Assembly (NCBI RefSeq): GCF_014904695.1
Contig: NZ_JACXXN010000005.1
Coordinates: forward strand, 310,001-374,000
Source: Nostoc sp. MG11
GTDB taxonomy: Bacteria; Cyanobacteriota; Cyanobacteriia; Cyanobacteriales; Nostocaceae
Reading direction: 5' to 3'
Length of the DNA stretch: 64,000 nt
Position numbers and translations under genes: made by a program. The notes below the pieces were generated by a model. The model searched no databases and was not told the DNA's origin. It saw only the letters and a list, made by a program, of their open reading frames with translations. Positions 39,162 to 47,018 of this stretch are shown piece after piece; position 1 is the stretch's first letter; each line of letters begins with the position of its first letter.

Positions 39162-39714
39162 TTCGCCCTGGGGCTAAGCCCCGCTGCGCTAAAGTAATTC
39201 GTGAGGCAGCTCGGCCTTGGTGGTTCTCCCAAAGAGGAACTGCTCAACCCGGAGGGTAATTCGTAATTAGTGATTCGTTAATTATGAATTAATTTGTTGA
39301 GGTACAACGAAAAGTCGGAGCGGAAAATGCGGTCTTGGGGTCTGATGCCACTTCGGCTTAGTTTTAGCAACGGAAAAATTTTGCGCGTTAAGGCTGAAAA
39401 GCTCACAGCATAGTGGTTATAACTAATCAGCCTTTGCTTTTTACCCTTAGCGACTCAGCCACCAGCCGTATGGCTCCCGTAGAACTTTCTTGCTGCACGA
39501 GCCGCCCCTGGAGCTGTACGAAGCCAGGGGAGCTTACAGCGCCTGGCTCATGGGCCGGAACAGGATCTCTCGTTCACGTCTACCTCTTCCAGCTGGCCCA
39601 TGGCGAAGGAGACCGCCCGCGCGAATGAATCAGCAGGATATAGTTATCTGCCTTGCACGTGTTGCCTTGCTTAGTGAGCTACGGAATGCAACCAGAGAAC
39701 ACATTTTTTGCTGC

Positions 39715-40722
39715 TCAGCGACCGGTCATTTGCTCCAGCTTTTCGGGATACCGAGCGCCTTGCACCGCGATCTTGGAGGCGGCGTCATCGATGTCACGCA
39801 GATCGTCGGGCGTGAGTTCGATTGAGACTGCCCCAATGTTTTCGTCCAAGCGATGCAGCTTCGTGGTGCCTGGGATAGGCACTATCCAAGGCTTCTGGGC
39901 CAGCAGCCAGGCGATCGCAATTTGAGCAGGTGTCGCTTGCTTCTGTTTGGCGATGTTGCCGAGCAGATTAATCAAGGACTGATTCGCCTTGAGAGCCTCC
40001 TTAGTGAAGCGAGGCAGGGTGCTGCGGAAGTCGGAGCTATCGAAGGTTGTGCTTTCATCCATCTTGCCAGTGAGAAAGCCCTTGCCCAACGGGCTGTACG
40101 GGACAAAGCCGATGCCGAGTTCCTCAAGGGTCGGTATCACCTCCTTTTCAGGAGTCCTCGTCCACAGCGAGTATTCGCTCTGGAGAGCAGCGATCGGCTG
40201 AACCGCGTGTGCGCGACGAATCGTTTGCACTCCTGCTTCAGAGAGTCCAAAGTGCTTCACCTTACCTTGCTGAATCAGTTCCTTCACTGCTCCAGCAACG
40301 TCTTCGATCGGCACGTTCGGGTCAACCCGGTGCTGATAGAGCAGGTCGATTGTCTCGATTTTAAGTCGCTTGAGCGAGCCTTCCACGGCCTGCTTGATCT
40401 GCTCCGGCCAACTATCCAATCCTGGCGCACCCTTCATTCCACGGGGATCGGAATTAGGACTCAGGTCGAACCCGAATTTGGTGGCGATCACCACTTGCCC
40501 ACGGAAGGGAGCAAGGGCTTCGCCCACAAGCTCTTCATTCAAGAACGGGCCGTAGACCTCGGCGGTGTCAAAGAATGTAATGCCGCGATCGACGGCGGCC
40601 CCCAGAAGAGCGGTCATCTCCTGTATGTCTTTGGGCGGGCCATAAGAAAAGCTCATTCCCATGCAGCCAAGCCCGATAGCCGAGACTTCCAGATTACTGT
40701 TTCCAAGTTTGCGCTTCTGCAT
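39715..40722 (-). CDS. Aldo/keto reductase (YajO/AKR11-13-like)
   Basis: The 335-residue NADPH-dependent oxidoreductase has the tetrad of the AKR barrel: Asp and Tyr in [10 protein letters not shown], Lys in VIATKFGF and His in LYQHRVDP. The cofactor site [17 protein letters not shown] is near the C-terminus. The start ATG at 40722 follows CAGGAG nine bases upstream. The substrate is unknown. It is about 60% similar by eye to the Tat-signal AKR at 42044-43252, so the two may be cargo paralogues. It is one of the few cargo genes that look intact. Confidence 0.92.
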
Positions 40723-40784
40723 TTTTTGAACTCCTGTCTTTGAATTAAAGGTGAATTAAAGGTCGCAACTGTCCTACTCTAAGA

Positions 40785-40880
40785 TCAGGTCTGGTATTGT
40801 TCGTCGCTGACCTGTTCCATTTAGTCCACGGTCTTGCCGTCGAGTTCTGAATGGCGATGTGCATCATGGACGTGGATTTG
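40785..40880 (-). pseudogene. C-terminal fragment of a cupin protein
   Basis: Minus-strand reading gives TSMMHIAIQ, then after a frame change ELDGKTVD, a stop, and MEQVSDEQYQT. This matches in order the tail of small cupin proteins (typically [26 protein letters not shown]), with a frameshift and a stop replacing Trp. The front part of the same kind of protein is fused to ApbE at 45809. Assignment is from remembered family sequence. Confidence 0.7.
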
Positions 40881-40889
40881 ACGCGATCG

Positions 40890-41726
40890 CTAGAATAAAC
40901 CGTCCGTTGATTTCGATAGCTCTTCATTAGCGCGCGTCGCCTGCAACCGTTCCTCGACAGCCGTTGCGATCGTCGCGAGGGCGTCGCTGCCGGCGACGAA
41001 TAGCTTCGGCGGATTCTCCATTCCGGCGATTTTGACCAGAGCATCGCCCAACTTTGCCGGATCACCCTGCTGCGTGCCGTGATAAGGCGACCACATCTCT
41101 TGGGCGCTGCCAAGAGCCGCGTAGTCCTCAATGACATTGCTTGCCCACCTGGTGTTGCCGGCATCCAGAAGGTTCGTGCGGAAGAAGCCCGGCTCGACCA
41201 CCGTGATCTTGATACCGAACTGCTCGACCTCGGTTGCCACCGACAGCGAGAGTCCTTCGACCGCGAACTTCGTCGCAGCATAGGCGGCGCAGTGCTTCAG
41301 TCCGACCACGCCAGCAACGGAGCTGATGTTGATGATGTGGCCCGACCGCTGCTGACGCATAAGCGGCAGCACCGCGCGCATGACGTACACCACACCATAG
41401 AAGTTCGTAGCGAACTGGCGTTCGATGTCGTTCGTGGTCATCTCCTCAAAATTACCAAGCAGGCTGTAGCCCGCATTGTTAACCAAAACGTCGATGCGAC
41501 CGAACTGCTTCACCGCCTCATCGACGCCTGTTTTCGCCTGTACCTCGTCGGCAACATCCAACTGGACAAATGCAAGATTCTCGCTAGTAACGTCGCGCAA
41601 GGCATTACGCACTTTGTCGAGGTTTCTTCCGGTCGCGACTACACGATCGCCGGAGTGCAATGCCGCCTTGACGGTTCCGGTGCCAATACCGCTACCAGCG
41701 CCTGTGATCAACCAGACTTTGCTCAT
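40890..41726 (-). CDS. Short-chain dehydrogenase/reductase
   Basis: A 278-residue classical SDR: cofactor motif ITGAGSGIGTG (7-17), NNAG in VLVNNAGYSLLG, catalytic Ser in NISSVAGVVG and YxxxK in AAYAATKFAVEGLSLS. It would oxidise or reduce a small alcohol or carbonyl with NAD(P)H. ATG at 41726 follows AAAAGGA. The end lies beside the cupin fragment. The substrate is not predictable; the cargo cluster suggests aldehyde or quinone detoxification, an inference only. Confidence 0.93.
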   Translation of the reverse strand: MSKVWLITGAGSGIGTGTVKAALHSGDRVVATGRNLDKVRNALRDVTSENLAFVQLDVADEVQAKTGVDEAVKQFGRIDVLVNNAGYSLLGNFEEMTTNDIERQFATNFYGVVYVMRAVLPLMRQQRSGHIINISSVAGVVGLKHCAAYAATKFAVEGLSLSVATEVEQFGIKITVVEPGFFRTNLLDAGNTRWASNVIEDYAALGSAQEMWSPYHGTQQGDPAKLGDALVKIAGMENPPKLFVAGSDALATIATAVEERLQATRANEELSKSTDGLF

Positions 41727-45809: not shown

Positions 45810-46018
45810 TTCCTTAATTCCTTCACTTGATGCCAGTTTGGTGGCTAGCAGGCAAGCCTCTTGCCCAATTAAAACTGAGTTTTCTCTTAAATAAAAATCT
45901 AGAATGCTGACAAGAAGCCGAAATCATTTTTCCTTGCTTTAGCTTCATTCTAAGAATCCTGAAGAATAAGGAATAGAACGATCGTCTAAGATAGTTGTAC
46001 AATCCTGCAAACTTAGAA

Positions 46019-46581
46019 ATGAATGCTGCCAAAACGAGTGAAAAGTCCGATATCGATTTAATGAACGACCCGCAGGCAAAGCGCGAGGTAGACAGAGCGC
46101 AAGCCAACAGAGACGAACTGAAAGAGCGGATTGCACAGGCTATTCGTCATGATGGGACGATTGAGCCGCTGAAAGGATTACACTTCAACCGCTCCTCCTC
46201 GCCTTCGGAATGCATTCATAGTGTCTCTATCCCTGCCTTTTGTGCGATCGCTCAGGGCAGCAAAGAAGTTCTTCTGGGCAGCGATCGCTATCAGTGCGAT
46301 CCGATGCATTATCTGCTTTCTACGGTTAAACTGCCGATTGTCAGCCAAATTCTGGAAGCGTCAAAAATGAGTCCCTTGCAGTTCCAGAAACAACTGCGGC
46401 TCCAGGAGGCTCGCCGTCTGATGCTGGGGAAAACCTTGACGCTACCAGTGCTGCCTACCGTGTGGGGTACGACGATGCCTCGCACTTCAACCGGGAGTAC
46501 AAGCGGCTCTTTGGTACACCACCGATGCGCGATGTGGAAAGGCTGCGAGAAGCTGCTAGGGAGACTGCTAGTTCAATATGA
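46019..46581 (+). pseudogene. AraC-family regulator, internally deleted and frameshifted
   Basis: The N-terminal region (GTIEPLKGLHFNRSSSPSEC, VSIPAFCAIAQGSKEVLLG) matches the AraC_N sensor domain. After PIVSQILEASK the sequence jumps to the second HTH region (MSPLQFQKQLRLQEARRLML), so most of the sensor and the first HTH are missing. A frameshift after LMLG follows; the next frame restores AYRVGYDDASHFNREYKRLF and ends RREAAR-like at TGA 46579. It was probably the divergent regulator of the cargo oxidoreductases. Confidence 0.8.
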
Positions 46582-46625
46582 TCTCCTCAAGATGCCCTAA
46601 TCTTGCCAGAAATCGCTAAAACATT

Positions 46626-46865
46626 GTGGAGACAGCTCTGTGTAGCGCACCGTATGCTAGATTTTTTTATGCTCCAGATAGTGTCGAGAAGGTGATTCAA
46701 CAATTGAAGCAAGAAGTACAGTTTCCAGGGGACGAAGAGTTGAAACACATCTGGCCCACTCGTCATGCTCACATCAATATCTACGGGCGGTATCACTTCA
46801 ACCGAGAGCTTCTTGGTAAGAAGCAGCAACTCCGAGATCTCCGCCAGCGGGGGTTTCAGCCTTAA
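46626..46865 (+). pseudogene. Tn3-family transposase (TnpA) C-terminal fragment
   Basis: The frame contains ELKHIWPTRHAHINIYGRYH and FNRELLGKKQQLRDLRQ, matching the extreme C-terminus of Tn3-type transposases (L-P-R-HIN-YG-Y-F). The stop at 46863-46865 overlaps the inner edge of the right 38-bp repeat, the normal place for tnpA to end. More than 900 upstream residues are missing. The ATG at 46626 is arbitrary. Confidence 0.75.
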
Positions 46866-47018
46866 CGACCAAAATTTTTCCGTTGCTAAAACTAAGCCAC
46901 TTCCTACAACGGAGTGGCTCCCCAAGAGGAATAATTTTCCAAAAGAGCGGTGGTTTACGGCCATCTGTTAGCGCAGCGGGGCGTATCCTATTATTAACTA
47001 CGAATTAGTCCCGCCAAG

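Follow-up and report, generated by a model that had tools for sequence, protein, structure and literature searches.

The 64,000 nucleotides of Nostoc sp. MG11 analysed here (assembly GCF_014904695.1, contig NZ_JACXXN010000005.1, positions 310,001 to 374,000; hereafter the window, with coordinates counted from its first base) contain a candidate transposon of 7,544 bp (39355-46898), which carries oxidoreductase genes and lies between a parvulin-like gene (38385-39161) and an ABC transporter gene (47019-48743). It is bounded by 38-bp terminal inverted repeats, on the forward strand at 39355-39392 and on the reverse strand at 46861-46898, which were identified by a repeat search and by pattern searches. 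As the initial annotation had it, they differ at two positions, matching at 36 of 38. The left repeat continues to 39399, and the inverted pair can be extended to 45 nt (39355-39399 and 46854-46898) with 96% complementarity. Both repeats end with GTTAAG at the inner edge; a TTAAG-like inner edge is a mark of Tn3 family ends. The word ACTTC, also picked out in the initial annotation, does abut the outer edge of each repeat (39350-39354 and 46899-46903) as a 5-bp target duplication. No third copy of the repeat was found in a scan of the window allowing 12 mismatches, no further copy within 39300-47000 at up to 13 mismatches, and none beyond this pair in the whole genome (G000; 8,410,901 bases in 238 contigs) either by BLAST at E 0.001 or by pattern matching with up to 3 mismatches.

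Scraps of two genes lie at the inner side of the right repeat. An open reading frame (46620-46862) stops at this repeat, and its part from 46683 to 46862 on the forward strand corresponds to the C-terminal tail of a TnpA transposase, past the stretches that we take to hold the DDE residues. It covers positions 353-389 of the 389 in PF01526 (E 0.004) and shares 67% identity with residues 935-991 of the full-length TnpA of L107, a cyanobacterial element described below, and 75% with a second remnant; the 3' fragment of tnpA reported earlier at this place is thereby borne out. On the reverse strand at 46597-46686 is a C-terminal scrap of a tyrosine recombinase, with one internal stop and 77% identity to residues 207-236 of the L107 recombinase. 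Because only these scraps are kept, with no full tnpA or recombinase frame inside the element, and because no array resembling the internal resolution site (irs) of Tn4430 was found in it, the element is non-autonomous.

Matches to PF01526 were found at four places in the MG11 genome, comprising two full-length TnpAs and two fragments. The full-length proteins (G000:C158:33677-34846 and G000:C225:6408-7577) belong to a different group, sharing approximately 23-24% identity with the TnpA of L107; near their ends, the closest match to the window-type repeat has 20 mismatches. The loci fetched for the two fragments contained neither a repeat with up to 13 mismatches nor a match to the L107 TnpA at E 1e-3. 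A cognate TnpA for the window element was not found in this genome.

The insertion site

In all four congeners compared (G001-G004), the parvulin-like and ABC transporter genes are adjacent and the insert is absent. In G002 and G003 the alignment jumps from 39139 to 47011 with one base between, which implies that the window holds 7,871 bp extra, namely the 7,544-bp element and 327 bp of flanking sequence that includes both copies of ACTTC. Congener comparison and hairpin folding identify these flanks as the left (39140-39354, its last five bases being ACTTC) and right (46899-47010, with ACTTC at 46899-46903) parts of a palindromic intergenic repeat hit by the insertion, the left part being absent from G002 and G003. 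When joined (39140-39354 and 46904-47019), they fold into a single large hairpin of 331 nt (z -4.74), with none of 100 shuffles as good. Local alignment of the left flank with the reverse complement of the right gave a score of 22, against a maximum of 17 in 1000 shuffles (0/1000); taken by themselves, the bases adjoining the joint do not pair significantly, 329 of 2000 shuffles reaching the same score. The palindromic repeat holding the element is itself absent from the corresponding place in the congeners, and parts of it are found at many places elsewhere in their genomes. Orthologous cargo without the repeats, which the initial annotation had named as a finding that would tell against a transposon, was not seen at this site in the four congeners.

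An autonomous relative and miniature elements

When the TnpA tail was used as a query, matches at E 1e-5 were found in 11 of 388 genomes of the class, the window's own counted. A search of 60 relatives returned the window's own match and four weak ones (35-54% identity), and tblastn on plasmids two distant non-cyanobacterial matches. An intact element with a full tnpA, suggested at the outset as something to look for, is present on contig 237 of a cyanobacterium (G639; L107:4495-8289). It is 3,795 bp in length, TTCCC is duplicated on both sides of it, and its repeats differ from the right repeat of the window by 1 and 3 mismatches. Between these ends it encodes a 994-aa TnpA (PF01526, E 8e-134) and, divergent from tnpA, a 235-aa tyrosine recombinase (Phage_integrase, PF00589, E 2e-42). 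The only solved structures matched by this TnpA were those of Tn4430 TnpA (E 1.2e-165), the search having returned no other Tn3-family structure for comparison, and the segments in which the DDE residues would be expected can be aligned. Through this autonomous relative, sequence comparison supports membership of the window element in the Tn3 family, and placement in the Tn4430 subgroup is likely. The Tn3-type transposition originally proposed for the window accordingly draws support from the ends, the 5-bp duplication and the Tn4430-related TnpA of L107, together with the absence of the insert from all four congeners.

A second, partial copy with one repeat occupies a 4.9-kb contig (L163) of the metagenome-assembled genome (MAG) of Leptolyngbyaceae cyanobacterium SM1_4_3; it is 72% identical to L107 over 2.8 kb and homologous to it through tnpI. 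The motif AATGGGACAGTT occurs in both as an inverted pair 22 bp apart with a third copy approximately 77 bp on, forming an irs-like array that sits between tnpA and tnpI and extends into the 5' part of the tnpI frame.

Allowing 3 mismatches, the repeat itself is present in 8 genomes among 388 from the order and in 1 among 5 from the genus, each count including the window's own. Its exact core turned up in 10 stretches of a genome collection, and a search of 72,556 plasmid records at E 0.01 gave 14 that match, all of them cyanobacterial. Perfect 5-bp duplications are seen at five repeat pairs with differing target sequences: ACTTC in the window, AGTAA at a 9.1-kb unit of genome G138, TTCCC at L107, CTTAA at a 272-bp element of Symplocastrum torsivum and TAATT at a 626-bp element of a Nostoc plasmid. 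The short independent elements bearing this repeat in other genomes are mostly 250-276 bp in length. The irs-like motif was examined in thirteen short repeat-bounded elements, eight of which have all three copies, each with no more than 2 mismatches and at the spacing just given to within 4 bp; among the remainder, two have two copies, one has three at other spacing and two have a single copy.

The 9.1-kb unit (L024:1384-10501; G138:C1:951383-960500), which shares the repeats, carries Avs3a (2,095 aa; PADLOC, E 0), Avs3b (E 4e-60) and, next to a weak match to DUF5615 (E 0.006, below cut-off), a DUF433 gene. No match to the TnpA or recombinase of L107 was found in it. A complete 276-bp miniature element, including the irs-like motif, makes up its right end, and its left end is the first part of one.

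The cargo and its relatives

The cargo genes of the window element are on the reverse strand apart from the regulator. They begin with an aldo/keto reductase (AKR1, 39715-40722, an open frame of 335 aa; PF00248, E 2e-76) and a short-chain dehydrogenase (SDR, 40890-41726, an open frame of 278 aa; PF00106, E 3e-55). After the 3' scrap of a further, fourth aldo/keto reductase gene (about 41920-42028, from blastn matches to L128 and L198) comes AKR2 (42044-43252, 402 aa; PF00248, E 4e-63), with a weak, below cut-off match to a twin-arginine translocation signal (PF10518, E 0.009). AKR3 (43339-44180) is a pseudogene split by a frameshift into two frames (43797-44180 and 43339-43833), and is one long frame in G004. 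An FMN_bind lipoprotein-like protein of 158 aa (44231-44707; PF04205, E 2e-4, just above cut-off) and an ApbE FAD:protein FMN transferase (44772-45809; PF02424, E 4e-42) are next, the frame of the latter being fused to a cupin N-terminus (45666-45809). An AraC-type regulator on the forward strand (45995-46600), in which AraC_N but no helix-turn-helix domain is recognised, completes the set.

This upholds the cargo originally listed, namely the aldo/keto reductases, SDR, ApbE, the FMN-binding protein and AraC, with some corrections. The cupin piece corresponds to residues 1-48 of the ApbE frame, with cupin matches of up to 87.5%; residues 3-49 match an NCBIfam cupin-type model below the model's cut-off. 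The junction region (~45666) aligns in congener G004 too, with a stop there. The regulator gene is short of about 420 internal bp, the gap falling between 46365 and 46366. The missing sequence is present in G003, G004, G346, Leptolyngbya boryana and Nostoc sp. NOS(2021), whose 340-aa homologue has both AraC_N and HTH_18. Two cargo genes, AraC and AKR3, are therefore broken in the window. Judging by the family names AKR, SDR and AraC_N, the cargo probably acted in the reduction or detoxification of reactive carbonyls under an AraC regulator that we take to be YqhC-like, with the ApbE/FMN_bind flavin pair added; the NCBIfam matches of AKR1 include one to a methylglyoxal reductase model, far below its cut-off. 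Among the YqhC-regulated aldehyde-reductase genes an AraC-type regulator is likewise found beside aldo/keto reductases. The cyanobacterial cluster differs in that it is larger in the relatives of the window cargo, with SDR, cupin, carboxymuconolactone decarboxylase and alcohol dehydrogenase (ADH) genes, and in that the window has gained ApbE/FMN_bind and has a broken regulator.

Related cargo accompanies this left end in three hosts, each time at a different site. In the MAG of Nostoc sp. NOS(2021) (G754, L161), the same left end runs contiguously through AKR1 and SDR (2,461 bp, 87%), followed by carboxymuconolactone decarboxylase, ADH, SDR, cupin and an intact AraC gene, with 93.8-97.2% identity over the parts shared with the window; this element stops beside a Proton_antipo_M gene, and its flanks are unlike those of the window. 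In Gloeocapsopsis crepidinum LEGE 06123 (L129, on contig 4 of G021), the left end is followed by FMN_bind, ApbE and AKR2. The conserved left-end region reaches beyond the repeat, over 39393-39480 on the forward strand of the window; counted from the repeat, identity is 88% over approximately 126 bp to L161 and 90% over 89 bp to L129.

The AraC 3' part with the adjoining recombinase scrap (46366-46683), run against 388 genomes of the order, was matched in 52, the window's own counted. Fourteen cargo loci were compared, ten fetched from the best matches and four found earlier, and all but L129 bear AraC. Among these 13, AraC is followed by a C-terminal recombinase scrap in six (G244, G322, G384, G049, G004 and G003), as in the window, and by a TnpA scrap in two (G269 and contig 99 of G000). 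The latter is a second AraC/oxidoreductase cluster in the MG11 genome, in which a TnpA scrap equivalent to residues 843-872 of the L107 TnpA lies directly behind AraC (G000:C99:26112-26362, L197). The passenger set had initially been described as unusual for a Tn3 element; an oxidoreductase cargo is indeed present, but it is not a one-off, as the same cluster of AraC and oxidoreductase genes is widespread in the order and frequently stands beside pieces of this transposon.

The identity of the neighbouring ABC transporter gene between the same two genomes was used as a control for horizontal transfer. AKR2-AKR3 are 96.6% identical to G244 over 2,174 bp, against a control of 84%, the AraC part is 94-97% identical to NOS(2021) against 86%, and AKR2 is 85% identical to G021 against 73%. 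As these exceed the control, parts of the cargo have moved horizontally; other parts may, on the same comparison, have been inherited vertically. Most cargo pieces in G003 fall below the control (75-94% against 94%). The order of the genes differs between the window, G004 and G244, which implies that the window cargo is a mosaic. Similar AKR and ApbE genes on rhizobial and Pseudomonas plasmids are only about 64-75% identical at the nucleotide level over longer pieces, which suggests a distant common module and not a donor. A search of viral contigs with AKR1 found three relatives, at 65-70%.

Origin of the element

The segment from 39355 to 46898 is most readily explained as a decayed, non-autonomous, cargo-bearing Tn3-family transposon of a cyanobacterial lineage resembling Tn4430, i.e. 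one with TnpA and a tyrosine recombinase; we would put the probability of this at about 0.8. TnpA acting on both 38-bp ends would have inserted the unit replicatively into the palindromic intergenic repeat, creating the ACTTC duplication. The order in the ancestor was probably left repeat, oxidoreductase cluster, AraC, tnpI, tnpA and right repeat, because tnpI and then tnpA scraps trail AraC in the window, tnpI or tnpA scraps trail the same AraC elsewhere, and two further hosts have the left end attached to related cargo. The tnpI and tnpA genes and the resolution site would later have been largely deleted, and the cargo would have turned mosaic through recombination with related clusters. Movement at present would presumably occur only with a matching TnpA supplied in trans.

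A number of observations weigh against this reading. An intact element with cargo, tnpI and tnpA was not found, so that the ancestral order is pieced together. The Pfam score of the window's TnpA tail is below Pfam's own cut-off, and an independent integrase belonging to the same family could be the source of the recombinase scraps. The element contains two isolated matches to the irs-like motif with 2 mismatches each, where 0.5 would be expected. No second repeat was found in the NOS(2021) element, and the Gloeocapsopsis contig ends before any second repeat. Twelve of the 14 cargo loci, L161 and L129 being the exceptions, have no repeat within 13 mismatches, which implies that the cargo cluster also exists without recognisable ends, and five of the 13 AraC loci have neither a recombinase nor a TnpA scrap at E 1e-3. 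For some parts of the cargo vertical descent fits equally well: the AKR1-SDR part is 87% identical to NOS(2021) against a control of 86%, and the cargo of G004 about 92% against 93%. Identical 5-bp flanks are missing from 11 short repeat pairs (one inside L024, and L027, L029, L031, L086, L088, L089, L090, L094, L164 and L166) and from two longer pairs with weaker repeats (L109 and L112). Lastly, although insert-free neighbours were found as the initial annotation had anticipated, an exact empty site with a single ACTTC was found in none of five genomes searched with the joined 38-base pattern at up to 3 mismatches, because the palindromic repeat is likewise absent from the congeners; in G001 approximately 350 bp of unrelated DNA lies between the two genes (L065; G001:C59, about 12655-13006).

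An alternative is that transposon ends closed round part of a resident AraC/oxidoreductase cluster within the MG11 genome, of which the cluster on contig 99 is a second copy, and moved it to the window site. The cupin-AraC part of that cluster is 92.7-96.8% identical to the window and has the TnpA scrap adjoining, and closely similar cargo is present in the congener G004 in a different gene order. However, the left repeat is already joined to the cargo in Nostoc sp. NOS(2021) and next to it in Gloeocapsopsis, making the association of repeat and cargo older than the window insertion, and the remaining cargo genes are matched only in small part by the contig 99 locus within the 19.9 kb fetched, so that a capture of this kind appears doubtful. 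It is less probable still that two short elements came to lie either side of resident or transported genes and that their outer ends then mobilised the whole block, as in the TIME-COMP composites. Short elements with the same repeats do exist in other cyanobacteria, and the 9.1-kb cassette of G138 has a complete one on the right and the first part of one on the left. In the window, neither end has the miniature-type inner repeat (up to 13 mismatches) or an irs-like array; the right end carries instead the TnpA tail and recombinase scrap, and six short elements, when compared, have only 36-46 bp in common with it, while the left end matches other cargo elements well beyond the repeat. The independent insertion of two miniature elements, raised in the initial annotation as a way in which its proposal might fail, was rejected on the same absence of inner repeat and array at either end: such elements occur elsewhere, but neither end of the window segment is one. 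That the flanks are inverted repeats of each other might point to inverted-repeat recombination or misassembly without transposition, but the 5-bp duplications at four other repeat pairs with different targets, the absence of the unit from all four congeners and the 424-kb length of the window contig make this scarcely credible.

As a probable decayed Tn4430-like transposon, the window element can be compared with several known systems. Transposition of the Tn4430 type involves 38-bp ends and a 5-bp stagger according to PMC9579193, and the irs of Tn4430 consists, according to PMC7157771, of inverted repeats IR1-IR2 plus direct repeats DR1-DR2. The cyanobacterial elements resemble this Bacillus transposon in the length of the ends and the staggered insertion, and L107 also has a related TnpA, a resolvase that is a tyrosine recombinase, and an irs-like site comprising a pair of inverted copies and a direct repetition. 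They differ in that tnpI is divergent from tnpA in L107 but collinear in Tn4430, that only one direct copy is recognised in the L107 array, and that, in the window copy, both genes and the array have been lost and cargo is present. Mobile insertion cassettes (MICs) are described in PMC7157771 as devoid of transposition genes; the window element is similarly a set of passenger genes between Tn3-family ends without a transposase, but it retains scraps of tnpA and tnpI and its cargo is metabolic. The Tn3-derived inverted-repeat miniature elements (TIMEs) and TIME-COMPs of Pseudomonas, with Tn5563a-like ends, and TIME-RES with the TnpR resolvase, as presented in PMC4133298, are alike in their 38-bp Tn3-type ends, 5-bp duplications, miniatures of approximately 260 bp and transposase-less composites. 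The cyanobacterial group differs in having sites of the tyrosine-recombinase type, and the window element in not being built of two miniature copies.

The kind of element is already known, and what would be new is its extension to a cyanobacterial lineage of the TnpI type with a recurrent cargo. A limited search of the open-access literature found no description of this group: in the portions available, three papers mention or cite cyanobacterial miniature inverted-repeat transposable elements (Nezha and others), none of which is linked there to Tn3-type ends (PMC10969869, PMC3189936, PMC6382973). As the TnpI resolvase is present in only three of the 190 members of the Tn3-family set in PMC7157771, in the accessible text of which 'cyanobacteri' does not occur, a cyanobacterial group would extend a rare branch. 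The chances are about even that a Tn4430-like lineage not described so far, its tyrosine recombinase divergent from tnpA, lives in cyanobacteria and comprises autonomous, irs-bearing miniature (including those on plasmids of Synechocystis PCC 6803) and cargo-cassette forms, that the AraC/oxidoreductase cluster is a recurrent passenger of it moving horizontally between families, and that in another host an Avs3 defence system is carried between the same ends. This would connect a family of transposons known above all for its resistance genes with the mobility of metabolic and defence genes in cyanobacteria; with a matching transposase, resolution site and miniature forms in hand, this mobility is testable. 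The Synechocystis miniature elements, at L088:14001-14250 on pSYSM and L089:14000-14249 on pSYSG, are approximately 250 bp in length and have irs-like motifs; at the outer edge they reach into the ends of genes annotated as ATP-binding and PIN-toxin.

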